DNA from: Bacteroidota bacterium
GTDB taxonomy: Bacteria > Bacteroidota > Bacteroidia > Flavobacteriales_D > Crocinitomicaceae
Length of the DNA stretch: 51,705 nucleotides
NCBI GenBank assembly: GCA_947378245.1
Contig: CANCJF010000004.1
Location: forward strand, 1 to 51,705
Direction of reading: 5' to 3'
The notes under the pieces were generated by a model. That model made no database searches. It was not told where the DNA came from and was given only the letters and a program-made list of their open reading frames with translations. A program made the position numbers and the translations under genes. Below are positions 3,976 to 51,705 of this stretch, one piece after another. Position 1 is the stretch's first letter. Each line of letters begins with the position of its first letter.

Positions 3976-5265
3976 ATGAAAACAACAACTTCCGAAGCCT
4001 TATTTGCAACTGCAAAAAATTATTTTCCTGGTGGTGTAAATTCCCCAGTACGTGCTTTTAAATCGGTGGATGGATCGCCGTTGTTTATCAAAAAAGGAGC
4101 TGGTTGCCGTATTTGGGATGAAGATGATAATGAATTTGTGGATTTCTGTTGTAGCTGGGGGCCACTGATTTTAGGACATAATCACCCTGCTGTATACGAA
4201 AAAGTGGTTGCTACGATGCAAAATGGTACTAGTTTTGGTGCCCCAACACGTTTGGAAAATGAATTAGCAGAATTAATCCTTTCTCGCAACCCATTTATTG
4301 AAAAATTACGTTTTGTGAGTTCTGGTACAGAAGCGGTGATGTCGGCATTGCGTTTGGCACGTGGATATACCGGAAAAGATAAAGTTATCAAATTTGAAGG
4401 GTGTTACCACGGACATACAGATGCGATGTTGGTAAAAGCAGGAAGCGGTTTGATCACATTTGGGGCTTCATCAAGTGCGGGTGTTCCTGAAAGTTTCGCA
4501 CAAGAAACAATCGTTCTTCCATTAAATGATATTGAAGCATTAAAAACGTGTGTTGCAACCTATAAAAACGAAATTGCGTGTGCGATTATCGAACCAATTC
4601 CAGCAAATAATGGGTTGTTATTACAAGAAAAAACGTTCTTACTAGCCTTACGCCAAATTTGTACAGAAAACGGAATTTTATTATTCTTTGATGAAGTAAT
4701 CTCTGGTTTCAGGGTTGCTTTTTCAGGTGCTGCTGAACATTATAGTATCAAACCAGACATTGTTACATACGGTAAAATCATCGGTGGTGGTTTACCAGTA
4801 GGTGCGTATGGAGCAAGTAAAGAAATTATGGCGCGCATTTCTCCTGATGGAGATGTCTATCAAGCTGGAACATTATCAGGAAATCCAGTTGCAATGGCAG
4901 CAGGAATTGCACAATTAACAGAATGTGCTAAACCAGGTTTCTACGAGGAATTAGAAAAACGTACAGTAGATTTTATAGCACCAATCAATGCACACGCGAA
5001 AGCAAAAAATTACGAATTTGAAATTCATACTATTGGATCTATCTTTTGGTTGTCATTTGCAGGAAATAAAACCATTCGTCGTGCAGATGAGATCAATCCA
5101 GATATGACAGGATTCAAACATTTACACCACGCTTTATTGGAAGTTGGGGTGTATTTAGGTCCAAGTGGATATGAAGTAGGTTTTGTTTCACAAGCACATA
5201 CTCCTGAGATTTTAGCAGAAGTTGCTGTGAAATTTTGCCAAGCATTAGATGTGATTTACGGGTAG
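3976..5265 (+). CDS. hemL: Glutamate-1-semialdehyde 2,1-aminomutase
   Basis: FPGGVNSPVRAFKSV, SSGTEAVMSALRLARGYTGKDKVIKFEGCYHGH, GKIIGGGLPVGAYGG-like; start trimmed to in-frame ATG at 3976. Confidence 0.95.
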   Translation: MKTTTSEALFATAKNYFPGGVNSPVRAFKSVDGSPLFIKKGAGCRIWDEDDNEFVDFCCSWGPLILGHNHPAVYEKVVATMQNGTSFGAPTRLENELAELILSRNPFIEKLRFVSSGTEAVMSALRLARGYTGKDKVIKFEGCYHGHTDAMLVKAGSGLITFGASSSAGVPESFAQETIVLPLNDIEALKTCVATYKNEIACAIIEPIPANNGLLLQEKTFLLALRQICTENGILLFFDEVISGFRVAFSGAAEHYSIKPDIVTYGKIIGGGLPVGAYGASKEIMARISPDGDVYQAGTLSGNPVAMAAGIAQLTECAKPGFYEELEKRTVDFIAPINAHAKAKNYEFEIHTIGSIFWLSFAGNKTIRRADEINPDMTGFKHLHHALLEVGVYLGPSGYEVGFVSQAHTPEILAEVAVKFCQALDVIYG

Positions 5266-5414
5266 ATTTTTTTACACAAAGTAAAAAAGAGGTCTGTGAA
5301 GTAGATGGTGGAATTAGAGGTCACAGAGATTTTTTAACTTTGTTAGAAAACAGAATCTCAAAAAAACGCTGAGAAAATAGATTCTAAATTTCATTTATTT
5401 TGTTTTGTACGGAT

Positions 5415-5429
5415 TAATTTTATAAATTA
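5415..5429. promoter_or_regulatory. Inverted repeat TAATTT-tat-AAATTA flanked by direct GTACG repeats; candidate TA operator
   Basis: Palindrome 21 bp upstream of the antitoxin ATG. Confidence 0.35.
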
Positions 5430-5449
5430 GTACGTATAATTAACTTGTA

Positions 5450-5707
5450 ATGGACACAAAACTCACACTCAAACTGGATAAATTTGTAGTGGAAGGAGCA
5501 AAAGAATATGCTTCTTCACACAATAAAAGTTTATCTCGTTTAATAGAATCCTATTTAAAGTCTTTACTGAATAATGAGAATCAGCCTACTGAGGAAGATT
5601 TTGAAATTACTCCTTTTGTTAAAAGTCTAAAATCTGGGGTGAAAATTCCGAAAGATTTTGACGATAAAAAGGGCTATGGTGACTACTTATCAGAAAAGTA
5701 TACATAA
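5450..5707 (+). CDS. Antitoxin of a VapBC-like pair (DUF6364-like)
   Basis: KLTLKLDKFVVEGAKEYASSHNKSLSRLIESYLKSL RHH-like N-terminus; 1-bp overlap with a PIN gene. Confidence 0.75.
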   Translation: MDTKLTLKLDKFVVEGAKEYASSHNKSLSRLIESYLKSLLNNENQPTEEDFEITPFVKSLKSGVKIPKDFDDKKGYGDYLSEKYT

Positions 5708-6135
5708 TGGATACACTTTTTTTAGACACCAACGTTGTCATTGATTTACTTGGTGAACGTGAAGATTTTTATGATGCAATCGCTAAAATAGTTTCTCTCG
5801 CTGATAAAGGGAAAGTCAAACTTACGGTTTCAGCACTGACTTATTCTACTGTATTTTATGTCCTTACTCGTTTTGAATCCAAAGAAATTGTAAAAGAAAA
5901 GATACGAAAATTTAAGATAATTGCTAAAACAGCAGATTTAACAGATAAAATTATTGATAAAGGATTAGCATCTAAATTTACTGACTTTGAAGACGCATTA
6001 CAGTATTATTGTGCGCTTAAATCTGGAAGTTCAATGATATTAACAAGAAATGAAAAAGATTTTAAGTCCTCCGAAATTCCAGTTTTTAACCCAAACGAAT
6101 ATTTAAGTAGACTACTATCGAATCCTCAACGATAA
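5707..6135 (+). CDS. PIN-domain toxin (VapC-like)
   Basis: LFLDTNVVIDLLGEREDFYD, DFEDALQYYCA, ILTRNEKDF. Confidence 0.85.
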   Translation: MDTLFLDTNVVIDLLGEREDFYDAIAKIVSLADKGKVKLTVSALTYSTVFYVLTRFESKEIVKEKIRKFKIIAKTADLTDKIIDKGLASKFTDFEDALQYYCALKSGSSMILTRNEKDFKSSEIPVFNPNEYLSRLLSNPQR

Positions 6136-7067
6136 AACGCCAATATTTTATCGGCAAGTACATCACTTAATTTATAATAACTTTCTGTCGTCCAACCTCC
6201 CACATGTGGGGTTAGGATGACTTTCTCAGATGCGATTAGTTCTTGAAAGACGGATAAGCGTTCACTGTCTGAAAAATTCTCAAAACTTGCTTTTTCAAAT
6301 TCAAGAACGTCCAATCCAGCACCTTTCACTTGACCCTTTGAAATGGCATTCAATAATGCTTGCGTATCCACAATTTTACCTCTAGAAAGGTTTAATAGGT
6401 AGATTGGTTTTGCAAGCGATTCAAAAAAGTGTTCATTGACCCAATAGAGCGTTTCTTCATTTTGCGGAATGTGAAAACTAATGACATCAGCTTCTTGATA
6501 GAGTTGTTCTAAAGACACTTGCGTTACGAAATCATCTGTAAGATTGTCTACGTATTTATCATAGACTAACACCTTTGAATCAAATCCGCGTAGTTTTTTA
6601 GCAAAAGCACGACCATTGTTTCCATAACCAATGATTCCAACGGTTTTTCCATCCAATTCTTCTCCACGATTTCCTTCACGATCCCAAATCCCTTTTCGAA
6701 CTTGTTGGTCTCCTTGTATAAACTTATTAAGTAACGCTAATAACATTCCTAATGCATGTTCCCCAACTGCATTTCGATTGCCTTCAGGAGCATTAAACAG
6801 CTGAATGTTACGTTCGCGAGAATAGGCTTCATCGATATTTTCCATACCAGCTCCTGAGCGAGCAATGAATTGTAATTTTGGAGCGTATTTTAAGAAAGCT
6901 TCGTACATAGGAAAACGAGAACGAATGACGATTCCAACAGCATTTTGTAATAAGGAATGACATGTTTCTAAATCAGATTTTGTAGCATCTATACATTGAA
7001 ATCCTTCGCTGGTTAAGCGTTCTTCTAAAATTGGATGGACTGTATCTAAAAAAACAACTTGCATCAC
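6126..7067 (-). CDS. D-2-hydroxyacid / 3-phosphoglycerate dehydrogenase family
   Basis: GKTVGIIGYGNNGRAFAKKLRGF Rossmann motif; LLNLSRGKIVDTQALL; LTPHVGGWT. Confidence 0.88.
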   Translation of the reverse strand: MMQVVFLDTVHPILEERLTSEGFQCIDATKSDLETCHSLLQNAVGIVIRSRFPMYEAFLKYAPKLQFIARSGAGMENIDEAYSRERNIQLFNAPEGNRNAVGEHALGMLLALLNKFIQGDQQVRKGIWDREGNRGEELDGKTVGIIGYGNNGRAFAKKLRGFDSKVLVYDKYVDNLTDDFVTQVSLEQLYQEADVISFHIPQNEETLYWVNEHFFESLAKPIYLLNLSRGKIVDTQALLNAISKGQVKGAGLDVLEFEKASFENFSDSERLSVFQELIASEKVILTPHVGGWTTESYYKLSDVLADKILAFYR

Positions 7068-8740
7068 TTGCGTACTTCTTGACCTTTTGAATATGTTTTA
7101 TCTAAAATGATCTTACCTGTGGAGTCGAACATACGAAATTTACCCTCTTTTAGTCCATTTTTATATTCAGATTCAGAAATTTTTTCACCTCTGCGACCAA
7201 ATTGGGTCATTAATCCAGCTAATTTTCCATCCTTGTAATTCGTAATAACAGCTGGCAATATGCCGCCAGGTAAGTAATCCACCCATTTACCATCTTTTTC
7301 ATCGTTTATATAATGTCCTTCTTCAGTTAAGGCATAATCTTTCATGGAATAAGACGCGTGATATCCATGACGTACACTTTCTTTCACTTTTCTACCTTTT
7401 GTAAAGCCATAATCGATTGGTGCAGCTTTTTCTAAGATTTTATAGGTGTTGATGTCTTCTACTTTTCCATTGTCATAGTATTTCGTCCATTTCCCTACTT
7501 TATACCCTTCTTTGTAGAATCCAGTTAAGGTAACTGTCCCATCCATAGCCCAAGAATGCCATAGTCCATGTAATAGACCGTCTTCAAACGTAGATTGATT
7601 TTTTAATGTAGAGTTTTGCCAAAAGTTTTTCCAAATCCCTTCTTCCTTTCCCTTGACGTATTTCCCTGTCATCAATAAAGTTCCATCCTCATACCACGTT
7701 TCCCATAAACCATCTTTCAAATCGTTGGAGTAGGTTCCAGCTTTAAATAATTTCTTGTTTTCGTAGTAATATTCCCATTTACCCTCGCGCTTATCTTGTT
7801 TGTAAAAAGCTTTGTAAGAAACTTCTCCGGTAGGGTAGTAATAGATCCAATTTCCATCTTGCTTATTGTTGACAAAAGTTCCCTCCATGTCTTTCCCCCC
7901 TTTGTTGGTATACCAAAACCACTTTCCTTCTTTTTTCCCAGCGACATAATTTCCGGTTACATTCAGTACTTTGGTGTCATAGAAGTAGGAGTAAGGTCCT
8001 TCTAATAAACCATTTTTATAATTACTGATTTTTTCTAAGTCACCTGTATAGTAGAAATATTTCCATTCACCATCTTTTCGTTCTTGTTTGAAGAATCCCG
8101 TCAAAAACAAATACCCATTGATACTTCTTTCCTCAAATATACCATCGCGTAACCCTTCTTTGTAATTATATACTTCTTTGACTTTTCCATTCGGGTAATA
8201 GGTTGTTTTGTTTCCTGTTCCATTTTTGATAGTACGTGTATGTAATGAATCATCATTCCAAAAATCTTTCACCATACAGATGGTATCTATATATTCTTCA
8301 ACCGATTGTTCACGACCATCCATATAATATTTTCTCCAAATACCAAATGGTCTCCCATTTTTGTATTTCCCTTCTACAACTAGTGTTCCATTTTCCACCC
8401 ATTCGCGGTAAATCGAATCTTGTTTATCTAGTTTAAAATACCCTTCTTGGCGTGGTTTTCCATTCGCATATTTTAAGAAAATTTGACCATGTAATTTTTC
8501 GCGGTAATAAGTGCGAATTTCTTCAATGTCACCAAACTCGTTGTAATATTCCCATTTTCCATGTTTATCTCGTGTTTCTCCTAATCGATCTTTGTAATAG
8601 GATCCAACTGACTGAATTTTAGTTTTTTTAAAATCCCAAAACAATTTATCTTTTTCAGTTAAATTTTCTTTTTTAACAGTTTGAGCGTTAGAAACTAAAG
8701 AGAAACATAACACTAGTAAAACAAGAATTTTTTCAAACAT
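7064..8740 (-). CDS. Secreted MORN_2 / YwqK-like repeat protein
   Basis: About 18-20 repeats of the type YxNGKxxxxxxYKxGxxxGxWxxY; signal peptide. Confidence 0.85.
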   Translation of the reverse strand: MFEKILVLLVLCFSLVSNAQTVKKENLTEKDKLFWDFKKTKIQSVGSYYKDRLGETRDKHGKWEYYNEFGDIEEIRTYYREKLHGQIFLKYANGKPRQEGYFKLDKQDSIYREWVENGTLVVEGKYKNGRPFGIWRKYYMDGREQSVEEYIDTICMVKDFWNDDSLHTRTIKNGTGNKTTYYPNGKVKEVYNYKEGLRDGIFEERSINGYLFLTGFFKQERKDGEWKYFYYTGDLEKISNYKNGLLEGPYSYFYDTKVLNVTGNYVAGKKEGKWFWYTNKGGKDMEGTFVNNKQDGNWIYYYPTGEVSYKAFYKQDKREGKWEYYYENKKLFKAGTYSNDLKDGLWETWYEDGTLLMTGKYVKGKEEGIWKNFWQNSTLKNQSTFEDGLLHGLWHSWAMDGTVTLTGFYKEGYKVGKWTKYYDNGKVEDINTYKILEKAAPIDYGFTKGRKVKESVRHGYHASYSMKDYALTEEGHYINDEKDGKWVDYLPGGILPAVITNYKDGKLAGLMTQFGRRGEKISESEYKNGLKEGKFRMFDSTGKIILDKTYSKGQEVRK

Positions 8741-8749
8741 AATCGTAGG

Positions 8750-9388
8750 TTAAAAATTTTTAAGAATTCCTTGAAGTAATAAAACTACTCCAAACAAAAA
8801 TAAGATGGATCCGGTAATTCGATTCAATGAACCTAATAACTGATCGGTTATAAAGGGACGAAGTTTTTTAGCTCCAATTATTTTTAGTACATCAATGGAA
8901 AAAAATGTAATTAATAAAACACCAATAAATAGGATATTATCTAACCAGCTATCTACTCCATGTTCAGTCCCTAGAGCCATGACACTAAACCAATAGAATA
9001 TCACCATTGGATTCACTAAATTTAGCATTAAACCTTTCAAAAATTGGATTAAATAATCTTTAGAGGTATGATTGGTGTTTACTATTTCTTCTTGTGATTG
9101 AATTTTTGATTTTTTAAAAAAAGAGACAAATCCATAAATAATAAAGAGTCCTCCACTGATTGCTTTTAACAATTCAGTATGTTTTCCTTCAATTAATTTT
9201 GCAACTTCACTATAGAAAATGTAGGCAATTGCAATATAAATCAAATCACTAATTAAAATCCCTAAATCAAAAGCTAGAGCTGATTTAACTCCTTTTTTAA
9301 TACTTGTTTCTAGGAGTAAAAAAAAAGCAGGACCAATCATTAAACTTAAAATTAATCCAGTAAAGATGGCTTTGAATACTAATTCCAT
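8750..9388 (-). CDS. LysE family translocator
   Basis: AIFTGLILSLMIGPAFFLLLETSIKKGVKSALAFDLG; NLVNPMVIFYWF. Confidence 0.85.
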   Translation of the reverse strand: MELVFKAIFTGLILSLMIGPAFFLLLETSIKKGVKSALAFDLGILISDLIYIAIAYIFYSEVAKLIEGKHTELLKAISGGLFIIYGFVSFFKKSKIQSQEEIVNTNHTSKDYLIQFLKGLMLNLVNPMVIFYWFSVMALGTEHGVDSWLDNILFIGVLLITFFSIDVLKIIGAKKLRPFITDQLLGSLNRITGSILFLFGVVLLLQGILKNF

Positions 9389-9424
9389 ATATGATTGATT
9401 ATTTTAACAAAGATATTTTTTTTG

Positions 9425-10945
9425 CTAATAGTTCCTACGTTCTCTGCCTAAAGTTTTAATGGTACCAATGGTGAGGTAAAAATTTGAAAAAACTTCGTCC
9501 TCTACATTTGAAAAACGTGCTTTAGGTTCTATGAAAAAAGACACATTATCACATTGAAAAAGTTTAGGTAGTTTAATTAGTTCGAATAATATACGCTCAT
9601 ATTTTATTTTCCTTGAAATATAGGCGCCAACTTGTAGTACATGTCTTGTTTTTCCTTGACCGATCGTATTTCCATACTCATAAGGGTGTAGATTGTAAGG
9701 ACGGTAAATATCTCCTCCAAAAGAAGCTTGATTTCCAGATGAAAAATAGTCGCTTCCTTTTAGGTATGCTTGTCCCCAAAATTCGTAACTCCATTTATTA
9801 AAATGAAAAGATACTTCTTGGTACAGCTCAATAAAATTAGAACCTAAAGGATGAGCCACAGGTAAACCTTGATTTCCTAAAACAACATCTTTAGATTTTT
9901 GTGAATAGGTGTAAGGTCGAACCAAATTAAATTCTGTACGGTAAAACATTTGACAGGAATTTGGTAAGGTTTTCCATCCTTTTAGTCCCACTTGTAATCC
10001 ATATTTATTAGACCACCATCCATTTTGCTTTTGAAATGCAGAAAGTAAAAAATCGTCTATTAATACTTGACCGTAGAACATTGAATTCCTATGTTTATAT
10101 GAAAAATGAAGACCTAACAGGATGTTATCAGCGGACCCCATGTTATATTCTTGTGGGCGATAAAATATGAGGGGGTTTAAATATTCAACTTCAAATCCAC
10201 GATTATACAAAGTGTCTTTCATTTGATAAACAACTGTTTCAAAAATAGAAAAATTCCATTTTTTGGATGGATTAAAGCTCAAATAATGGGTCGCGTTACC
10301 TTTCGGGCTATAATGATTTCCACTTCTTTCTCTCCAAATTTGTTGAATAAATGAATATTCAAGTTTGCCAAATTTGGCTTTTAGTGATGCAAATGGTGCA
10401 GGTACCCCTTGATTTCCTAAAAATAATGACCGATCTCCTTCTCCAAAAGTGATTCTATCAATTCCAGTTGTAAACGTAAGTACAGAATTAGGTTTATATT
10501 GGATGCGACCTCTAATATCCCCATAGATTGAATATGCTGTGAATGGATTTAATACTTTGATGTTTTCAAAAAAGAAGGATTTCGTTTGAAATATTGAGGT
10601 GTAAGGTATGATTGATTGATCAGATGTTCCAAGTCTTAAATCAAAAATATAGGAAACTTTATCTTTTATATTTCCTGTTAATGTATATGCCAAACCTTTT
10701 TGAAACGTAAATCCGGTTGTACCATTTTTGTATACGTTTAAATTAAATATTTCATCAGGTAAAATTTTAAATTGAAATTTACTTGAGTCTTTGTTTAATA
10801 AAGAATCAAGTTCAAAGAACATAAACGATTTTTCAGAAGTGTGTAAATTAACATCTTGTTTTAGCCATATTTTTTCCACTTCTGGTGTTTGTTGACCAAA
10901 AAATATAAAAGGGAATAATAGGGTTACTAATAATAGATTCTTCAT
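9425..10945 (-). CDS. Outer-membrane beta-barrel protein, capsule assembly Wzi-like
   Basis: ITFGEGDRSLFLGNQGVPAPFASLKAKFGKLEYSF; AHPLGSNFIELYQEVSFHF; signal peptide. Confidence 0.65.
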   Translation of the reverse strand: MKNLLLVTLLFPFIFFGQQTPEVEKIWLKQDVNLHTSEKSFMFFELDSLLNKDSSKFQFKILPDEIFNLNVYKNGTTGFTFQKGLAYTLTGNIKDKVSYIFDLRLGTSDQSIIPYTSIFQTKSFFFENIKVLNPFTAYSIYGDIRGRIQYKPNSVLTFTTGIDRITFGEGDRSLFLGNQGVPAPFASLKAKFGKLEYSFIQQIWRERSGNHYSPKGNATHYLSFNPSKKWNFSIFETVVYQMKDTLYNRGFEVEYLNPLIFYRPQEYNMGSADNILLGLHFSYKHRNSMFYGQVLIDDFLLSAFQKQNGWWSNKYGLQVGLKGWKTLPNSCQMFYRTEFNLVRPYTYSQKSKDVVLGNQGLPVAHPLGSNFIELYQEVSFHFNKWSYEFWGQAYLKGSDYFSSGNQASFGGDIYRPYNLHPYEYGNTIGQGKTRHVLQVGAYISRKIKYERILFELIKLPKLFQCDNVSFFIEPKARFSNVEDEVFSNFYLTIGTIKTLGRERRNY

Positions 10946-40498: not shown

Positions 40499-40528
40499 TT
40501 GACAATTGATAATTAACAATTGACAATC
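40498..40528. repeat. TTGACAATTGATAATT-type intergenic repeat
   Basis: aattgacaattgataattaacaattgacaatc. Confidence 0.6.
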
Positions 40529-40634: not shown

Positions 40635-41453
40635 ATGATTACAAACGTAGATTTAATTGATGTTAAAGAATTAACAAGTATAGTTCAAGAGAAGTATAAT
40701 GAAGATTTTTCTGAATTTGCTACTACTGCGTATCGACGAAGAGTTGAAAAAGCTGGGAATGATTTGCGAATTCCTACAATGAGTGTTTTGTTGGAAAAAA
40801 TCAAAACCGATCCAGCGACTTTTCAAAAGTTTAAAAAACAATTAATTATCCCTACCACAGAGTTTTTTAGAGACCCTTCTTTTTGGAGAAAATTAAGAGA
40901 AGAAATAACAAAAAAACATAAAGCAACTGCTTTTAGAGTTTGGGTTGCTGGTTGCTCTTCAGGAGAAGAATTGGTTTCTCTTGCTATTTTATTGAAAGAA
41001 TTAGATATTTACGATAATAGTAAAATACTCGCGACTGAAATAACCGACCAAGTTTTTGCGGATATTAAAATGGGGAATTTTGAGGCTAGAAGTATCGAAA
41101 CAGGAGAAAGTAACTATGAGCGTTTTGAAGGTAAAAAGAAGTTTGCTGATTACCTTAAAACTTCAAATGGTATTACAACTATTGATACGTCATTGCTTTC
41201 TAATGTCACTTTCCAAGCTTCATCAGTCGATCTATCGGAAGTTACAGGAAAATTTGATTTAATCCTTTGCCGTAACGTTTTCATCTATTGCAATCTTAAT
41301 TTGCAAGATAAAATGATTAAAAGCTTTGAACAGCGTTTATTCCCATCTGGATTATTCGCTATCGGAGTGAAAGAATCCTTAAATTCTTCTCGTTACAAAA
41401 ATTCTTTTTTAGTGGTTTCGGAAGAAGAAAATATTTTCAAAAGCAAAATGTAA
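40635..41453 (+). CDS. CheR-type protein-glutamate O-methyltransferase
   Basis: TEFFRDPSFWRKLREE, RVWVAGCSSGEELVSLAILLKEL, FDLILCRNVFIYCNLNLQDKMIKSF. Confidence 0.9.
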   Translation: MITNVDLIDVKELTSIVQEKYNEDFSEFATTAYRRRVEKAGNDLRIPTMSVLLEKIKTDPATFQKFKKQLIIPTTEFFRDPSFWRKLREEITKKHKATAFRVWVAGCSSGEELVSLAILLKELDIYDNSKILATEITDQVFADIKMGNFEARSIETGESNYERFEGKKKFADYLKTSNGITTIDTSLLSNVTFQASSVDLSEVTGKFDLILCRNVFIYCNLNLQDKMIKSFEQRLFPSGLFAIGVKESLNSSRYKNSFLVVSEEENIFKSKM

Positions 41454-41565: not shown

Positions 41566-43773
41566 ATGTTTAAAAATATCAACACTAAATTAAATCGTAA
41601 GTTCTCTGTTGTTTTTGGAGTGATAACGATTACCGTTTCTACCTCTTATTTGCTTAATTTTTGGTTTAATAGTACGTTAAAAAGCGATGCTGTTGTAACG
41701 GAATTAGCTGCTCAAAATAAGATATCTGCTCAAAAAATGGAGATGCAATTAACAAAGTTGTACTATGCAAACGAGGAAGAGAGTATTGAAACATTAAAAA
41801 ATGAAATTCAGGAGACTTCCATTTCTTTTCGTAAGAATTTAGCAGTCATAAAATTAGGTGGTGATTATTACGATGAAGAAGAAAAAGTAGTTGTCAAACC
41901 AGCGATAGAAACTACCTTGAAAAATGAAATTTCAGAAATTGAGTCTGTTTTTGGTGGTTTAATGCAAAAAGTAAACATCATCATAGATCAATCTAAATAT
42001 GTTCGATTAAAAGCTTCTGATACACTTAAAACATCGAAGGTTCGATTGATTAATCCTGTTTTTGATGAAACTTTTACGAAGTTGAATATTTATTTAAAAA
42101 ATAATGATTTAATTGCTGACAATCAGGATTTACTTAACATTTTAAGTAAAAAATCAAAAGAAGGTAAAAAGTTTTTCGTGGAATTAATGATTTTCTTGTT
42201 GATTACAAATGTGTCTTTGATATTCTTAACTTATTTATTCTTAAGAAGAAATTTAAAACCAATAGAAAGTATTACAGATTATGTAACTCGTTTGTCGGAT
42301 GGAGAATTACCAAATGATATCCACACGAAGTCAAAAGATGAAATCAATGAGATTGCATTGGCAGTAAATAAGTTGGGGTCAAATATCAATGCAGCTAGTT
42401 CATTTGCGGCAAGTATTGGAAGTGGAAATTTGGAAACAGACATTGTCGTTTTTAACAATCACGGAAAATTGTCTGAATCCTTGCGTTCAATGCGAGATAG
42501 TTTGGTTAGTGTAGCCGATGAAGAAGCAAAAAGAAATTGGGCTACAGAGGGATTTGCAAAATTTGTAGACATCATCCGATCTACAGATAATATCGAAGAG
42601 TTTTATAATAATATTTTAGGGAATTTAATTCGTTATTTAAAAGTAAATCAGGGCTACCTGTACATTGTCAATGATCAAAATACGGTGGAGCCATTTATGG
42701 AAGTTCAGGCAGTGTACGCGTATGGGAAGAAGAAATACTTAGAGGACAAAAAGACCGCTCATTATAAAGAGGGATTAATAGGTCAAGCATGGTTTGATAA
42801 AGAAGCTTTATATTTTACGGAAATTCCAGATAATTATGTCTATATAACTTCTGGTGTTGGTGAATCGTTGCCAAAAGCTTTATTAATTGTTCCACTCGTA
42901 ATTAATGAAGTAGTGGTAGGTGCTATCGAGATCGCTTCCTTTAAAGAACTACACCAATACGAAATTGATTTTGTATTTAAATTAGGAGAAACAATTGCTG
43001 GCGCAATACAGAATGTAAAAGTAAGCGAACGAACACGAAAATTGTTAACTGAATCCCAAGAACATACGGAACAAATGCGCGCTCAAGAGGAAGAGATTCG
43101 TCAAAACATGGAGGAGATGCAAGCGACCCAAGAAGAAATGGAACGTGCACAACGTGCGATGAAACAAGCGTTGGATTCAGCTAAAATTAAAGAACAAGAA
43201 GCAATCGCTATTCAAGAAGATTTTGAACACCAAAAAAACAGAATTCAAGCGGAATTTGACGTGCAATTAGCAATCATCAATGAAACAGCAATTGTTTCTA
43301 AAACAGATTTGCGAGGATATATTACGTATGTGAATGATATGTTTTGCGAAGTTGCTCAATATACACGGGAGGAATTAATTGGTCAAAATCACAATATTGT
43401 TCGTCACCCAGATATGCCTGCAGCTGCTTTTGAAGATGTTTGGAGAACAATTAGTTCTGGAAAAATTTGGAAAGGTCAAGTAAAGAACAAGAAGAAAGAC
43501 GGCTCTTATTATTGGGTTCAAGCAACAATCTCTCCAATTATCGGTGAAAACGGTAAACCTGTTGAATATATGGCGGTACGTTATTTAATTACGGATATGA
43601 AAGACCAAGAAGTTTCAAATATCCAACTTATCGAAACAATGCGTGCACAAGAAGAAGAAATTAAACAAAATTTAGAGGAAATTCAAACTACGACTGAAAA
43701 ATTGGAAGCAGTAATCAAAGACTATAAAGAAAGAGAAGAAAAATTACTACAAGAATTAAAAAACAAGGGGTAG
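41566..43773 (+). CDS. Membrane HAMP-GAF-coiled coil-PAS protein with no kinase, cyclase or MCP output domain
   Basis: TM segment VELMIFLLITNVSLIFLTYLFL then HAMP; GAF; Aer-like PAS (YTREELIGQNHNIVRHPDMPAAAFEDVWRTISSGKIWKGQVKNKKKDGSYYWVQATI); C-terminal coil only. Confidence 0.82.
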   Translation: MFKNINTKLNRKFSVVFGVITITVSTSYLLNFWFNSTLKSDAVVTELAAQNKISAQKMEMQLTKLYYANEEESIETLKNEIQETSISFRKNLAVIKLGGDYYDEEEKVVVKPAIETTLKNEISEIESVFGGLMQKVNIIIDQSKYVRLKASDTLKTSKVRLINPVFDETFTKLNIYLKNNDLIADNQDLLNILSKKSKEGKKFFVELMIFLLITNVSLIFLTYLFLRRNLKPIESITDYVTRLSDGELPNDIHTKSKDEINEIALAVNKLGSNINAASSFAASIGSGNLETDIVVFNNHGKLSESLRSMRDSLVSVADEEAKRNWATEGFAKFVDIIRSTDNIEEFYNNILGNLIRYLKVNQGYLYIVNDQNTVEPFMEVQAVYAYGKKKYLEDKKTAHYKEGLIGQAWFDKEALYFTEIPDNYVYITSGVGESLPKALLIVPLVINEVVVGAIEIASFKELHQYEIDFVFKLGETIAGAIQNVKVSERTRKLLTESQEHTEQMRAQEEEIRQNMEEMQATQEEMERAQRAMKQALDSAKIKEQEAIAIQEDFEHQKNRIQAEFDVQLAIINETAIVSKTDLRGYITYVNDMFCEVAQYTREELIGQNHNIVRHPDMPAAAFEDVWRTISSGKIWKGQVKNKKKDGSYYWVQATISPIIGENGKPVEYMAVRYLITDMKDQEVSNIQLIETMRAQEEEIKQNLEEIQTTTEKLEAVIKDYKEREEKLLQELKNKG

Positions 43774-44084: not shown

Positions 44085-45497
44085 TTATATCTTCACACTC
44101 AACGTAAAATAATAGGCATTCGTTGAATGGTTAAATTCTAATTTCCCTCCCAAATATTCTACTAATTTCTCACTGATCGGAAGACCTAATCCAAAGGTGT
44201 CCACTCCGGAGAGGGATGGGTTTGTGGAGGTATAAGTCGGATGGGTTATTGCTGAATGCTCTTTTTGGATGCTTTTCACTTCAAAATACAGAATACTATT
44301 GTTTATTTGACTACGCATACTCGATACAGAAATTAGTATTTTACTATCTTTTGCAATTAATTTTAAGGTACTACTCAGTAAATTATTAAGTATAATTGAA
44401 ATTTTTACTGCGTCAATGTTGATTTCAGCTGGTAAATCTTTCTCTACCTCGAAATCTAAAAATACATTTTTTGATATGGCATGAAAATAATGCGAAGCCA
44501 AAACTTCTTGGATTAAATCGACCAAGTTTGTCGTATTCACAGTTGTTGACTCTTGGTATTCAATTAATCTTTCATCATTTAACGCTTCATCGATTAAGAT
44601 ATTGATACTTTGACATTGATGTTTTAAGGTGTTTAATTCAATGCGTTGTTCTCCTGTTAAAGTAGAAATTACTTCTGGTGAGGAAATAGATGAAATGATT
44701 TTATATAAAGGAAATATGATTTCAGAAGAAAAATGGTTGATGAACGTGTTTTTTAAATCTAAATTTCGCTCGATAATTTTCTTTTCTTTTTTGATGATTT
44801 CATTTTCTATTTGTGAACTGATATCGGTAATGAAAATAAGAACAGAATGGGTTGAAGCATCTACCTCTTTTAATTTTGTAAGTTGAACCAATCCACGCTT
44901 TACACTATTTATATCAAAAACATGTTCAAATTGTAAATGTTGTGCTTCAGATAAGTAAAAATTATCGATTTTGGCACTTAGTTCTATATCAAAAATACGA
45001 TAAGAAGCTAAAGTGTCAATCGAATCATCGGGTAACTCAAAAAAACGATTAAAGGAAGAATTGTATGTCTCGATAGTACGTTTTAATGGCTCAAACACAC
45101 AAAATGAAATCGAAGTAGTTTGAAATATATCCCTAAACAATAGATTTTTAGTGAATTGTTTAGTTTCGTTTTCAAAAATGGTATGAATACCCAAAGAAAT
45201 AGCATCTAAATCATCTTCTATTTCTTCATTTACTAAGGTAGAAGCAACGGATTGTCCGTCAATTCTATGGGTGACTTGTTTTAGTATAAATTGTTGTTTT
45301 TGTAGCGTCTTTAAATGAGCTTCATACAAAAGATTTGCTTCTTTTTCTAATTCAATAATCACGTCTTCCTCGGAAGTTAGTGTTGGACAGGAAGAATTGG
45401 ACATACGTTTTAATAAAGTTAAGACGTTTGTCAATTTTGGATTTCCTAAGTCATAGGAAACGAATTGTTCCGTAGTGAATTTATTAGTAAGCTTCAT
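44085..45497 (-). CDS. PAS-type sensor histidine kinase homolog with degenerate phosphoacceptor site
   Basis: PAS-like region; HisKA-like FINHFSSEIIFPLYKIISSISS with Ser where His is expected; HATPase N-box ILNNLLSSTLKL and GLGLPISEKLVEYLGGKLEF. Confidence 0.72.
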   Translation of the reverse strand: MKLTNKFTTEQFVSYDLGNPKLTNVLTLLKRMSNSSCPTLTSEEDVIIELEKEANLLYEAHLKTLQKQQFILKQVTHRIDGQSVASTLVNEEIEDDLDAISLGIHTIFENETKQFTKNLLFRDIFQTTSISFCVFEPLKRTIETYNSSFNRFFELPDDSIDTLASYRIFDIELSAKIDNFYLSEAQHLQFEHVFDINSVKRGLVQLTKLKEVDASTHSVLIFITDISSQIENEIIKKEKKIIERNLDLKNTFINHFSSEIIFPLYKIISSISSPEVISTLTGEQRIELNTLKHQCQSINILIDEALNDERLIEYQESTTVNTTNLVDLIQEVLASHYFHAISKNVFLDFEVEKDLPAEINIDAVKISIILNNLLSSTLKLIAKDSKILISVSSMRSQINNSILYFEVKSIQKEHSAITHPTYTSTNPSLSGVDTFGLGLPISEKLVEYLGGKLEFNHSTNAYYFTLSVKI

Positions 45498-45626
45498 AAT
45501 GGGTAAATTATACGTATCAAATATACGTATTATTTTGATTGATTACGTATTAATTTTTGTAATTTTATTCTTTAGTATCTTATTTATCAGTATTTTTACT
45601 AAATAGTTAATCATTACCTTTTTTAA

Positions 45627-46322
45627 ATGGAATTTGCCTTAGTTTGTAACGAAAAAGGAATCGTGCAAGAGATCACTTTAGACACCTCTTCCCAATTAAC
45701 TATTGGCAACTCTTTATTTCCCTTCGTGGATTCATTTAGCATCCCGAAAATTCTTACTTTTTATCAAGAAATTGAGAATAAAGGAATTGCACTTAACTGG
45801 GAAATAAATTTTTGTTTTGAAGACATGCTTATAGCACTAGTAGTGTCTGGTATAAAAAGAAATAAAGAAATTCAAATTTTTGGATATTCTGCACACGACA
45901 ACAATCAAAAAATCATCGATGAATTAAGTGCAATTAATAATTCACAGAGTTTATTACTTCGTTCATCCATCAAAGAAAACATAAAGCACGCTGTACAGAG
46001 AGATCCAGAAAGTGATAAGGCATTTATTTTAAGCTTGCAAAATGAAAATAGATTATTAAAAAACCAAGTGATTTCTTCGAGTCGTATCTTTGAAAAACAA
46101 TTAAACGAACAAGAGCATAAAATCAAATTATTACTTAAAAAGGATAACGAATTAAAGGAAGAACTTTTGATTATATACGATGAAATTAAATGTTCCACAG
46201 AATTAATAATTAAGGATTACCGACAAGCGGTATTTACGAAGCAAGGAGAATTAGAAGAAATACAATCCCAACTTTTTGAGTTGAATTTACTAATCGAAAA
46301 GTGGGGTATAATTAAGGAATAA
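45627..46322 (+). CDS. PAS-like / coiled-coil signalling protein, no output domain seen
   Basis: PAS-like N-terminus; IIDELSAINNSQSLLLRSSIKE linker; long C-terminal heptad region. Confidence 0.5.
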   Translation: MEFALVCNEKGIVQEITLDTSSQLTIGNSLFPFVDSFSIPKILTFYQEIENKGIALNWEINFCFEDMLIALVVSGIKRNKEIQIFGYSAHDNNQKIIDELSAINNSQSLLLRSSIKENIKHAVQRDPESDKAFILSLQNENRLLKNQVISSSRIFEKQLNEQEHKIKLLLKKDNELKEELLIIYDEIKCSTELIIKDYRQAVFTKQGELEEIQSQLFELNLLIEKWGIIKE

Positions 46323-46323
46323 C

Positions 46324-47592
46324 ATGCCGAATCAATTAAATCAATTATTAAACCATAAAATAAAAACAGAATATTCTGTGAAGAATAATTGGGATTTAAC
46401 ATTAGAACTAAATCTCTTACTTACTTTTTTCTCACATCAGTCCAAGCAATTGCCAGTATTTATTTATTGGTTGGAGAATTATTTTGAAGCAGTAAATTTA
46501 CCTTTTTCTCTGCTTGAAAATTGTTTGTTAGAAATTGAACCAAAACATTTTTTGGTTCATAGCGACTTAAAAGAGAAGCTAAAAGTAAATAACAAAATAG
46601 AAGAAATAGGGCTTTGTACCGACTTGCACATTGAACTTTTTCAAACCATTGAGAAACATTCTAAGCCTGAATACAGAAGTTATATTTATAATGACGCGGA
46701 AAAACATTTAGAATTTTTAAAACAATCGATCGAAACGGATAGTATTATTTTATTTACGGAATACATCGCTTGGGCAAAAACAATGTTAAACGCTTTGCAC
46801 ATTGACACAAGTACCTTAATTCGCTTTTTGGTCACTTTACGTACTGTTTTTCATGTAAATAATCAGAAAAAAGAAGTAGCGTTTTTGGATCGTGGTATCC
46901 AAATGTTATTAGATGGAAATGTCGTTTCAGCAACTTCTGAAATCGCGTTTACCATTACTGAAGAATCCAAAAAATACTTAGAGCTTCTCCTTCTAAAAGA
47001 ACGAAATTTGGCTAAGAATTACATACTTGAGTTAGCGGATGGAGGAATGGATATTCGTGAAATATTCCTTGATGTTTTTCAAGCGACCCAATATGAATTA
47101 GGTAGATTGTGGGAATTGAATCGTATTACCATTGCACAAGAACACTACTGTACAGCTGCAACGCAAACCTTCATGGCAATGCTTACCGCACGTATTGTTC
47201 CAGAAAAATTAATTGGTAAAAAAGTGATTGCTACCTGTGTAGGTACTGAACAACATGAATTAGGGATACGAATTGTAAATGATTTCCTAGAAATGGAAGG
47301 TTGGGATACGTATTACTTGGGTGCAAATGCGCCGATGGAAGCCATTATCCTTGCCATTAAAGATAACCAACCAGATTTATTAGCACTATCGGTTACATTG
47401 ACACCACATGTTAAAAATGTGATTGAAATCATTCAAAAAGTGAAAAATATTTTCCCAACCATTAAAATATTAGTTGGTGGTTATCCTTTTTTAAGAGATA
47501 ATTCATTAGCAGAAAAAATTGGAGCAGATGGCGTCGCTTTAGATGCAAAACAAGCGCCTATAATTGCCTTAAAATTAGTGCAGAATTCTTAA
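46324..47592 (+). CDS. Cobalamin-binding (B12-binding_2 + B12-binding) protein, photoreceptor-like
   Basis: RLWELNRITIAQEH matches W-x9-EH; TEQHELG matches the ExHxxG variant of the B12 ligand motif; ILVGGYPF. Confidence 0.85.
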   Translation: MPNQLNQLLNHKIKTEYSVKNNWDLTLELNLLLTFFSHQSKQLPVFIYWLENYFEAVNLPFSLLENCLLEIEPKHFLVHSDLKEKLKVNNKIEEIGLCTDLHIELFQTIEKHSKPEYRSYIYNDAEKHLEFLKQSIETDSIILFTEYIAWAKTMLNALHIDTSTLIRFLVTLRTVFHVNNQKKEVAFLDRGIQMLLDGNVVSATSEIAFTITEESKKYLELLLLKERNLAKNYILELADGGMDIREIFLDVFQATQYELGRLWELNRITIAQEHYCTAATQTFMAMLTARIVPEKLIGKKVIATCVGTEQHELGIRIVNDFLEMEGWDTYYLGANAPMEAIILAIKDNQPDLLALSVTLTPHVKNVIEIIQKVKNIFPTIKILVGGYPFLRDNSLAEKIGADGVALDAKQAPIIALKLVQNS

Positions 47593-47610
47593 TTTTTTTC
47601 TTTCTAACTA

Positions 47611-48312
47611 GTGAAAAAAGTATTTGATTTTGTGCTAGACTCAATCTTCGAGCCATCCGAGGTCGCATTCCAGTGGAGAGAAGAAAAAAGAGAAGAGCAA
47701 TACCGTAACTACACCCTTGTTCAAGAAAAAAAGGTAATAGTTGTCACAAGTAGAGGTTGGGTAAGTAAAGATGGAAATGCATGCATGCGCTTCGCGCGCT
47801 TTCAAAACGAGCAAATCGACATTACAACGCTTATCATTTTCCCTACAAACGACACATCACTTTTTCCAATTTTTGTGGTAGAACTCGTGTTGGTGATGGA
47901 TAAAATTCATCGTTGTATTGTAGATGTGGAGCCCGTCACTTTGCTCAGCAAACCATTAATAGATACCTATTTTTCTTCTTTATACACGAAAAACCAAGAC
48001 CTTTTAGAACAATTAAATGACCGACCTGACTGGTTTACCGACATTCAATCGCCTTACGCTATTTACGCGACCTGTAATGCTTCGGAGGTGCATAAAGTGG
48101 AGACAATTGTAGATTCGTATTTCTCTATGTTTATGCTAGAATATATAAACGGTCAAAAATTACCAGTTTTTGAACAGGTCAAGGATCATGTTTCTGTTGC
48201 TGAATATAAAAAACACCATGTTGCACATTCTCCAGCAAAATCAATTATCAAGGGCGAAAATGAATCTTGGTTGAATCAATTTTTAGAACATAACCATTTC
48301 AAAATTCTATGA
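47611..48312 (+). CDS. Putative ferredoxin-dependent bilin reductase (HY2/PcyA superfamily), GTG start
   Basis: FARFQNEQIDITTLIIFPTNDTSLFPIFVVELVLVMDKIHRCIVDVEPV; QSPYAIYA; C-terminal EYKKHHVAHSPAKSIIKGENESWLNQFLEHNHF; 4-bp overlap with heme oxygenase. Confidence 0.65.
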   Translation: MKKVFDFVLDSIFEPSEVAFQWREEKREEQYRNYTLVQEKKVIVVTSRGWVSKDGNACMRFARFQNEQIDITTLIIFPTNDTSLFPIFVVELVLVMDKIHRCIVDVEPVTLLSKPLIDTYFSSLYTKNQDLLEQLNDRPDWFTDIQSPYAIYATCNASEVHKVETIVDSYFSMFMLEYINGQKLPVFEQVKDHVSVAEYKKHHVAHSPAKSIIKGENESWLNQFLEHNHFKIL

Positions 48313-48902
48313 AGTTATCTGAAAAGTTAAAAATAGCCACACAAAATGCACACAAAGAAATTGAGCAGTCTCATTACTTTAAACGACTTCTATCTCCCGA
48401 TTTAACAGTCGAGGAATATGTGCATATTTTGTGTTTATGGAAGACATTCCTTACCCCAATCGAAGCATCTTGGCAAAAACATGCGGAATCCAATTTGATT
48501 TTTTCAACCATAAATCAAAGAGGTAAAACCTACCGTTTACAATTGGACATAGATAATTTAGGAAAATTTTACCATCTTGCGAATTCGAGTGGGGCTGGCA
48601 AAAAGTTGCTTGCAAATGACTTCGATGTACAGAATCCATTGAGTTTAATTTCCTCTTTATACGTTATCGAAGGTTCCACTATGGGAGCAATGCATATTGT
48701 AAAACAGTTAATGAAGGTTGATTTTTGTTCGGAGAACACGACCCATTTTTACACACATTATGGAGAGGAAACGATTGCGATGTGGCAAACGTGTAAAATG
48801 GAATTGGACCATTGGGGAGATGAAAACCCAAATCTTCACAATCAGGTGTGTGATGGAGCGGTTCAATGTTTTCAATCGCTTGGAAATCATTTTAATGGTT
48901 AG
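48309..48902 (+). CDS. Biliverdin-producing heme oxygenase (BphO/HO-like)
   Basis: LKIATQNAHKEIEQSHYFKRLL (proximal His), SSLYVIEGSTMGAMHIVKQL, FYTHYGEETIAMWQTCKMELD. Confidence 0.82.
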   Translation: MKLSEKLKIATQNAHKEIEQSHYFKRLLSPDLTVEEYVHILCLWKTFLTPIEASWQKHAESNLIFSTINQRGKTYRLQLDIDNLGKFYHLANSSGAGKKLLANDFDVQNPLSLISSLYVIEGSTMGAMHIVKQLMKVDFCSENTTHFYTHYGEETIAMWQTCKMELDHWGDENPNLHNQVCDGAVQCFQSLGNHFNG

Positions 48903-49085: not shown

Positions 49086-51705
49086 ATGATCACTAAAACA
49101 AAAAATTGGTTTATTAAAAACATACCAGAATCGGACTCAGTTATTGAGAACCGTAGGTCTGCCTTGGTATTCCAATATTTGTTTATATATAGTTTAATAT
49201 TAGCTTTTTCGTACCCTTTTTTCTGTATAAAGCTCAATCTTTCTCAGATTTTCGTGAGTACACTTGGATTACTTGGTGCTATCATTCCCTTGTTTTTATT
49301 GCGTAGTTCACATTCGTATAAAATGGCTTCGATTGTTTACATATGCTTGGGATTACTTAGTAATACCTTGTCTATCGTTGTTTTTTCGAACGGAGTAATT
49401 GATGCGCGATTATTTACGTGGTTTTTAGTCCATATTTTGTTTGCGTTTTTTACCTTAGAAAAAAAAGCAGGGTTAATCATCATGGGCTTGACCATTGCGT
49501 TAAGTGTAATAATTCCATTTGGAAAGGAATTACCTATATTTTCCTCATTCTACCAAAATCAGGAGAATACGGTCCTATTCACTATTTTGTCCAATGTGCT
49601 CTCCTATATCTTTATCTATTTTATTTTAGATAGTTACATGAAGATTTTTCAGGCATCTGATTCACGAATTCAAGAGTTAATAGGAGTAAATTTGGATACT
49701 CAGAAAGAGATGATTGATATTCTGAATCAAAACCTAGCATTAACCGAAGAATTTAGTGAAAATCAACAGGTATTAGAAACCAATTTTGAGTTATTGCAAA
49801 ATTTAGATTTAAAAATTCATAACTCTGAAGAACAAACCTTAGCGATACATGATGCTGCTCCAGTAGGAATTCTTTTTTTCAATTTAAAAGGGGAGTGTGT
49901 TTACACAAATCCGAAAGCAACAAATATATTAGGATTAGAGAACGCTAGCAAAGAATGGTTAATGACCGTAATTGAATCTGACAAGGATAAATTAATCAAA
50001 AAATGGGATGCATTTATCGAAGAAAAAAGCAATTTTTCTGCAGATTTTCGGATTAATGTTTCGGAAAGTGAAAGATGGATTCAAGCACGTATTACACCCA
50101 TTCGTGAAAATGGAAAAGTAGTTTCCTTTATAGGTACCATATCGAATATTACGAATGCACATAGAGAAAAAGAATTGCTTTATGTTTTATTTGAAATGGT
50201 GGATCATACGTTAGATATTTTCTTTGTTACAGAAAAAGATGGAGATATTATTTATCTGAACAAAGCAGCGAAAACATTATTACGACCAAGTAAGGCCCAA
50301 CGATCTTTAAATGTATTTGATACCAATTGGATAGAATCCGATAAGGGTTGGATGGAAAAAGTGACAACACTAAAAGAGCAAGAATCCGCGAGCTATGTTA
50401 GGGAATCTAAAGATGATTTTGGGAAAGCTACAATTTTAGAAGTAACTGAAAGACTCTATACTTTTCGTGAGGTAGAGTATGTCATTACTATGGCGAAAGA
50501 TCGTACAGAGAAAATGGAAGATGAAAAGAAAATAGTACGAAACCGTTTGTTTTTGAAAAATGCCCAATCCATCGCAAAAACAGGTAGTTTTGAACGAAAT
50601 TTCACTACCAAAGAATACTTTTTTTCTGATTACCTCTATGAACTATTTCAAATACCACAAGACACCGATATTTCGCGTTTTGATTTCAGACAATATATTT
50701 CAAACGAGGATTATGAGTATGTAAATGCCATTTTTAAAGAGAAGATTCGGAAAGAAAAATCATTTAGTTTAATGTATCGTTTGGTGAATACGCTTGGTGA
50801 AATTATACCGGTTCATACGACTGTAGAAATTGTCCGAAGTAAATCGGGAGCTGTAAGTAAAATCAGTGGTACCATCCAAAATTTGACCGAACAGTATAAA
50901 ATGGATAAACTAAATAGAGAATTAGTTCAATTACAAAGCGATCAAATTAAAAACAAATTAGAAATCGAAGAGCGAACCTTGGATCTTATTGAAAAAAATG
51001 TACAAATGAAAGAAGAGCGTATACGTATTTCTTCTGTGTTAACAGGACAAGAAAATGAACGTAAGCGCTTATCGAGAGAATTACATGATGGTTTAGGACA
51101 AATGTTGACCGCGATCAAATTAAAGGTGGAAATGATCGATGAAAAAGCGGTAAATTCAGAAGATATTTTGAAATATATTTTAGAGATTAAAAAAGACATA
51201 AAAAACACCATTTTCGAAACCAGAAAAATATCCCAAGATTTGATGCCAAGCGCCTTAGAAGATTTTGGAATTGCCTCTGCTATACGTATACTTGCGGAGG
51301 ATTTTTCCAATGTAAAAGGGATTAAAGTATTGTTTAAAGAAAAGGATTTTAACTCAGATCTTCCTTCAGATATAAAAATAACGTTATTTCGTATTGTACA
51401 AGAAGCATTTTCAAACATTTCGAAACATTCAAATGCTACAAAATGTACCATTGAATTAAGCAACAAAAACGAAATCATTTATTTGAAAATTACAGATAAT
51501 GGTTCAAATTTTAGAAAAGACGTTTTTGGTTCAGGTTCAGGAATTGTTAATATGAAAGAAAGAACAGAATTGTTAAATGGACAATTTTTAATTAATCAAA
51601 CACAAGAAAACGGGTGTGATATTCAAATTAAAATTCCTTTAAATGATTCACCTTTGGTAGTTTTAACCCCTGTAAAATATCCTGGGGGGGGGGGGTATCT
51701 ACCTA
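49086..51705 (+). CDS. Membrane sensor histidine kinase (multi-TM + PAS repeats + HisKA_3/HATPase), incomplete at window end
   Basis: Frame open from ATG 49086 to window end; GQENERKRLSRELHDGLGQMLTAIKLKVEMI (HisKA_3), FRIVQEAFSNISKHSNATKC (N box), GSGSGIVNMKERTELLNGQF. Confidence 0.88.
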   Translation, partial: MITKTKNWFIKNIPESDSVIENRRSALVFQYLFIYSLILAFSYPFFCIKLNLSQIFVSTLGLLGAIIPLFLLRSSHSYKMASIVYICLGLLSNTLSIVVFSNGVIDARLFTWFLVHILFAFFTLEKKAGLIIMGLTIALSVIIPFGKELPIFSSFYQNQENTVLFTILSNVLSYIFIYFILDSYMKIFQASDSRIQELIGVNLDTQKEMIDILNQNLALTEEFSENQQVLETNFELLQNLDLKIHNSEEQTLAIHDAAPVGILFFNLKGECVYTNPKATNILGLENASKEWLMTVIESDKDKLIKKWDAFIEEKSNFSADFRINVSESERWIQARITPIRENGKVVSFIGTISNITNAHREKELLYVLFEMVDHTLDIFFVTEKDGDIIYLNKAAKTLLRPSKAQRSLNVFDTNWIESDKGWMEKVTTLKEQESASYVRESKDDFGKATILEVTERLYTFREVEYVITMAKDRTEKMEDEKKIVRNRLFLKNAQSIAKTGSFERNFTTKEYFFSDYLYELFQIPQDTDISRFDFRQYISNEDYEYVNAIFKEKIRKEKSFSLMYRLVNTLGEIIPVHTTVEIVRSKSGAVSKISGTIQNLTEQYKMDKLNRELVQLQSDQIKNKLEIEERTLDLIEKNVQMKEERIRISSVLTGQENERKRLSRELHDGLGQMLTAIKLKVEMIDEKAVNSEDILKYILEIKKDIKNTIFETRKISQDLMPSALEDFGIASAIRILAEDFSNVKGIKVLFKEKDFNSDLPSDIKITLFRIVQEAFSNISKHSNATKCTIELSNKNEIIYLKITDNGSNFRKDVFGSGSGIVNMKERTELLNGQFLINQTQENGCDIQIKIPLNDSPLVVLTPVKYPGGGGYLP

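Follow-up and report, generated by a model that had tools for sequence, protein, structure and literature searches.

A probable light-sensor operon with both enzymes for its pigment in a few freshwater Flavobacteria

The DNA analysed here (the window) comprises positions 1 to 51,705 of contig CANCJF010000004.1 in the Bacteroidota assembly GCA_947378245.1. Near its end lie four consecutive genes that presumably form an operon (45627-48902; Table 1), encoding a protein that looks PAS-like in its first part and coiled-coil in its second, a predicted photoreceptor with a globin and a B12-binding domain (referred to as photoglobin-B12), a protein resembling ferredoxin-dependent bilin reductases (FDBRs), and a heme oxygenase. 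Judged from sequence, this operon, found in a few freshwater Flavobacteria, probably combines a light sensor gene with the genes for the two enzymes by which its pigment would be derived from heme, one of them a highly divergent relative of the enzymes behind cyanobacterial and plant light pigments. The photoglobin-B12 and FDBR genes are separated by 18 bp, and the FDBR and heme oxygenase genes share an ATGA, so that translation of these two overlapping genes is probably coupled. The Bacteroidetes -33/-7 promoter pattern was no more frequent than expected by chance, and was absent before the operon. A first-pass annotation of the same DNA had described a putative bilin reductase gene overlapping a heme oxygenase gene by 4 bp in a Bacteroidetes genome; it was right about both the overlap and the host, whose near-identical relative is a Flavobacteriia MAG.

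Table 1. Genes of the presumed operon and its surroundings (window coordinates), with the evidence for each.
Feature	Coordinates	Strand	Evidence and remarks
CheR	40635-41453		Pfam; beside HAMP-GAF-PAS receptor
HAMP-GAF-PAS receptor	41566-43773	+	Pfam
Divergent histidine-kinase-like gene	44085-45497	-	HATPase_c below Pfam cut-off; homologue 32% identical in second species, same orientation
PAS-like/coiled-coil protein, 231 aa	45627-46322	+	First gene of presumed operon; no Pfam family; 36% identical homologue at same place in second species
Predicted photoglobin/photocobilin-type photoreceptor, 422 aa	46324-47592	+	B12-binding Pfam, PDB sequence matches, globin profile, motifs
FDBR-like protein, 233 aa, GTG start	47611-48312	+	Pfam Fe_bilin_red, predicted fold, residue map
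Heme oxygenase, 197 aa	48309-48902	+	Pfam Heme_oxygenase; 4-bp overlap with FDBR gene
Multi-PAS HisKA_3/HATPase sensor kinase	49086-51704	+	Pfam; open at window end

A second species of the genus, represented by a Flavobacteriia MAG, has the same genes in the order divergent kinase-like, PAS-like, photoglobin-B12, FDBR, and heme oxygenase, again with 4-bp overlaps. Protein identity between the two species is 32% for the kinase-like protein, 36% for the PAS-like protein (230 aa), 55% for photoglobin-B12, and 34% for the FDBR. The FDBR reading frame is not a product of chance, since an open frame of 231 codons is preserved in the second species at this level of identity and in the same gene order. 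The heme oxygenase gene of the second species (local coordinates 2184-2769) is split by a frameshift, which may be either true decay or an assembly error. Signalling genes of like kinds flank the cluster in both species. The gene that comes next in the second species does not match the sensor kinase downstream of the operon, which we regard as a neighbour that does not clearly belong to the conserved cluster. In the divergent kinase-like protein, the H-box, judged by eye, reads FSSEIIFPL in the window and IDKEMMLPL in the second species (local coordinates 6694-8091, minus strand), with Ser and Lys respectively at the phosphoacceptor position. As the phosphoacceptor His seems to be absent from both, this protein may be a pseudokinase that partners the sensor.

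The heme oxygenase, FDBR, and full-length photoglobin-B12 genes occur together in the same three of 13 genomes of the genus, which amount to about two independent lineages because two of the three genomes are near-identical. FDBR genes were found in 3 of 240 genomes of the family and in 2 of 399 genomes sampled from the order. Across a sample of the phylum, a 42-sequence FDBR profile recovered the window genome and, in another genome, a 59-residue fragment that we take as a chance match, given its internal stop; the phylum scan with Pfam Fe_bilin_red (no matches) carries no weight, as it also missed the window itself. The decarboxylase gene upstream has counterparts of 98-99% identity in six further genomes of the genus, which assigns the contig to this genus and rules out contamination. 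DNA shared with five sibling genomes ends near window position 40500, past an aldehyde dehydrogenase gene, placing the cluster in a variable region. The segment 40500-51705 (CheR, the HAMP-GAF-PAS receptor, the kinases, and the operon) is absent at this place in the five siblings, and looks like a lineage-specific signalling region. Within it, GC content at third codon positions is 0.36 in the FDBR and heme oxygenase genes vs. 0.26-0.28 in the three genes upstream (44085-47592), which suggests that the two enzyme genes may have joined the cluster later, as a pair.

The photoglobin-B12 protein consists of an N-terminal region (residues ~1-95), a globin (~95-215), and a B12-binding region (~225-420), the latter a predicted CarH-like C-terminal domain. 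Its top PDB sequence matches are the photocobilins 8j2w, 8j2x, and 8j2y. The B12 motifs associated with light sensing are present as W263-x9-E273-H274 and E309-Q-H311, and W263, E273, H274, E309, and H311 are shared without change by the window, the second species, and Azospirillum. Of the four SignatureFinder motifs, GxxW, EH, and GxxxP are strictly present, and the position of GxxH is occupied by T-E-Q-H. When grouped with Azospirillum and Skermanella homologues, the globin profile matched the globin of photocobilin-like Streptomyces proteins at E 2.1e-8 (95% probability), a match that weakened to E 3e-4 when only the two Flavobacteria were aligned. D124 and W150, 26 residues apart, correspond to Asp270 and Trp296 of SasPcob, which contact biliverdin. 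The globin region of the second species contains no Cys, which fits non-covalent bilin binding and makes a covalent Cys linkage of the phycobiliprotein type unlikely. The three-dimensional model of the protein is of low confidence, weak outside the B12 fold, and too weak to support the globin. In residues 1-95 (46324-46608), a WLENYFEAV-type motif resembles the globin's WAKTMLNAL segment, a weak hint (E 0.019) that this region is perhaps a degenerate second globin half. Together, the domains and motifs make it very likely that this gene encodes a photoglobin-B12 photoreceptor.

Photocobilins have been described for their photochemistry in SasPcob and AbDPcob, and those crystallised use biliverdin (PMC10979010; PDB 8J2W/8J2X/8J2Y). 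The protein in the window resembles them in the W-x9-EH and E/DxH motifs of its B12 domain and in the bilin-contacting Asp and Trp of its globin, spaced as in SasPcob. It differs in having the globin N-terminal instead of C-terminal, in its ~95 extra N-terminal residues, and in its linkage to a bilin reductase gene. Photoglobins are globin-B12 fusions (Schneider 2022, as cited by others); the protein in the window is such a fusion, and its Azospirillum and Skermanella homologues share the N-terminal globin order. In contrast to the window, none of three annotated alphaproteobacterial photoglobin examples has an FDBR or heme oxygenase marked in its neighbourhood; the record of a fourth carries no annotation. 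A plasmid of Azospirillum thermophilum (local coordinates 4305-10157) has a globin-B12 gene in the vicinity of genes for PAS-domain, ATP-binding, and response-regulator proteins and for a sensor kinase, an arrangement resembling that in the window, with no FDBR or heme oxygenase annotated.

The last gene of the operon matches Pfam Heme_oxygenase well above the cut-off (E 5.6e-14, 52.9 bits; cut-off 23), and is the only heme oxygenase match in the window genome. We consider it likely that this enzyme serves the predicted photoglobin-B12 photoreceptor.

The product of the gene preceding it matches Pfam Fe_bilin_red (E 5.2e-10, 39.8 bits; gathering score 31), and is also detected by a profile built from cyanophage FDBRs only (E 3e-10). 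The NCBIfam PcyA model scores it at 3.7e-9 and 36.4 bits, far under its cut-off of 206, and the second-species FDBR falls below Pfam detection. The predicted structure (pLDDT 77.6, pTM 0.82) has the alpha/beta/alpha sandwich fold of the FDBR family, aligning with Nostoc PcyA (2g18) at Z 20.6 over 210 residues and with PcyA, PebS, PebA, and PebB generally at Z of about 17-20. Foldseek returned 36 matches at E <= 0.001, every one an FDBR or red chlorophyll catabolite reductase (RCCR). This fold match is supportive, although not fully independent, because the alignment behind the model contained phage FDBRs. In sequence searches of the PDB, the single window sequence found PcyA weakly, and a three-sequence FDBR profile (HMMER) found no FDBR. 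The protein shares core residues with PcyA, PebS, PebA, and PebB (Pro78, Pro86, Asp105, Ser147, and Tyr199 in window numbering, among others) but only ~12-18% identity, with the PcyA-specific catalytic residues all changed and the second Asp lost. In a tree whose references were phage and cyanobacterial sequences only, the window protein and its relative are set far apart from the rest by a very long branch. Searches of viral contigs, phages, and plasmids with the window FDBR returned no relative, so that an origin from phages or plasmids has no support. From the sequence match and the modelled fold, the protein is almost certainly a member of the FDBR superfamily. The assignment made in the first-pass annotation thus held in both the profile search and the fold comparison.

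We mapped the active site on an alignment that included FDBRs of cyanophages as well as PebA and PebB from cyanobacteria. PcyA Glu76, His88, and Asp105 correspond to Ala62, Thr73, and Glu91 in the window protein, and the second Asp of PebS and PebB, which lies in their DPA motif, to Ser207; in the second species, these four positions hold Ala, Thr, Glu, and Ala. Where the first-pass annotation saw a likeness to the C-terminal DPA motif, the Asp is missing from both the window (SPA) and the relative (APA). The central Asp (PcyA Asp105), which most though not all lineages of FDBRs conserve, is kept in all eight tabulated reference FDBRs, and is Glu in the window and its relative. With the PcyA residues replaced, the window protein does not qualify as PcyA, and the sequence does not tell which product it would make. 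The missing central Asp does not exclude membership in the FDBR superfamily, because pre-1 enzymes also lack the PcyA catalytic residues.

Activity cannot be assumed, since Glu replaces Asp105, Ser or Ala stands in for the second Asp, and both His88 and Glu76 are absent. A pre-1 enzyme, from a lineage lacking the PcyA residues, nonetheless showed weak activity and seemingly made a little phytochromobilin (PMC10151467), and PebA functions without the second Asp; both make reductase activity plausible here. A search of the open-licence literature for data on a D105E change found none. On these comparisons, we regard the FDBR-like protein as probably an active reductase. The earlier suggestion that the organism may make a reduced bilin is accordingly backed by homology and fold and weakened by the four changed catalytic positions.

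The association of FDBRs with a B12-binding protein and a globin has already been reported from myxobacteria, where the pre-2 PcyA enzymes are encoded in a three-gene cluster with these two proteins, mostly in Myxococcales (PMC10151467; Rockwell, Martin and Lagarias 2023). Such clusters sometimes include a heme oxygenase, FDBR activity has been demonstrated, and the BBAG-2 globins of pre-2 clusters bound biliverdin even while a reduced bilin was made; by the authors' account, no function is known for the bilin-binding globins accompanying pre-PcyA enzymes (PMC10151467). The same study documents FDBRs in heterotrophs, in agreement with the first-pass annotation. As in pre-2, the window has a heterotroph FDBR without Glu76 beside B12-binding and bilin-binding globin functions, and the locus looks like a fused version of the pre-2 cluster plus a heme oxygenase. 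Unlike in pre-2, where they are separate proteins, the globin and B12 domains are here one fused protein. At PcyA position His88, the window protein has Thr as in pre-3, whereas pre-2 has Asn; at Asp105, it has Glu, whereas pre-2 and pre-3 both have Asp. Its catalytic residues therefore fully fit neither pre-2 (Asn88, Asp105) nor pre-3 (Thr88, Asp105). The hallmark cluster of pre-1 and pre-3 consists of an Fe-S protein and two V4R proteins, and no such family was found among the neighbouring proteins scanned. The host is a member of the Flavobacteriia, and its phylum is not named in the main text of PMC10151467. The new elements of this locus are its host in the Bacteroidota, the fusion within its predicted photoreceptor, and its changed active site.

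We propose, with a probability of roughly 0.6 for the mechanism as a whole, that a light sensor and its own chromophore supply are encoded in the operon 45627-48902. The analysis shows sequence homology, the predicted fold, motifs, a conserved gene order, and co-occurrence, and it is from these that enzyme activity, product, delivery to the globin, and signalling are inferred. The heme oxygenase would open heme to biliverdin, and the FDBR-like protein, fed by ferredoxin (2Fe-2S ferredoxin-type domains are present in the window genome), would reduce biliverdin to a two-electron-reduced bilin, either phytochromobilin or a dihydrobiliverdin. The bilin would sit non-covalently in the globin domain of photoglobin-B12, adjoining adenosylcobalamin. 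As in photocobilins, absorption of light by one or the other chromophore would cleave the Co-C bond, and the altered assembly would signal on through two partners, the PAS-like protein and the divergent kinase-like one. We lean slightly toward the FDBR product being the chromophore of the sensor. This step is the least certain, because BBAG-2 globins kept biliverdin, so that the reductase product need not be what the sensor binds. The frameshift in the heme oxygenase gene of the second species also counts against the proposal.

The main alternative is that the FDBR-like protein has no reductase activity and acts as a carrier or chaperone of biliverdin between the heme oxygenase and the globin, in which case the sensor would be an ordinary biliverdin photocobilin. 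Such a role would agree with the changes at both catalytic Asp positions and at His88 in both species, with the binding of biliverdin by BBAG-2 globins and photocobilins, and with the probable translational coupling of the overlapping FDBR and heme oxygenase genes. Against it, an acidic residue (Glu) is retained at the central position in both species, a pre-1 FDBR, from the lineage lacking all three PcyA residues, is weakly active, and PebA does not need the second Asp; we consider a pure carrier unlikely.

FDBRs classically supply reduced bilins to phytochromes and phycobiliproteins, and the reduced bilin could, in the manner of cyanobacteria, be destined for such a protein elsewhere in the genome. 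This we think very improbable, as no PHY-domain (phytochrome) match was found in the 92%-complete window genome, and a likely bilin acceptor is encoded within the operon itself. The two enzymes could also serve a separate purpose, such as the release of heme iron with disposal of the biliverdin, and adjoin the photoglobin-B12 gene by chance. Their higher third-position GC, perhaps a sign of their addition as a pair, would be compatible with this, but gene order and overlaps are kept in two diverged species, the three genes co-occur, and the same functions are joined in published clusters (PMC10151467), leaving a chance association improbable.

We thus favour the operon as a light sensor with its own pigment supply. 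Earlier reading of the locus as a bilin reductase correctly recognised the enzyme pair and left out the likely bilin consumer encoded upstream; the predicted photoglobin-B12 gene turns a stray reductase into a probable part of a light-sensor operon. It is a tentative proposal, somewhat short of even odds, that a new Bacteroidota lineage of FDBRs, with Glu for the central Asp, produces a reduced bilin reserved for a dual-chromophore photoreceptor of B12 and bilin. The photocobilins described in the open-licence literature were studied with biliverdin, and if the proposal is true, tuning of a photocobilin-type sensor by a reduced bilin would be seen here for the first time. The operon offers a compact system for asking whether FDBRs of heterotrophs exist to tune B12-bilin light sensors, bears on whether Glu can substitute for a widely conserved catalytic Asp, and would add a Bacteroidota branch to the origin story of cyanobacterial pigment synthesis.
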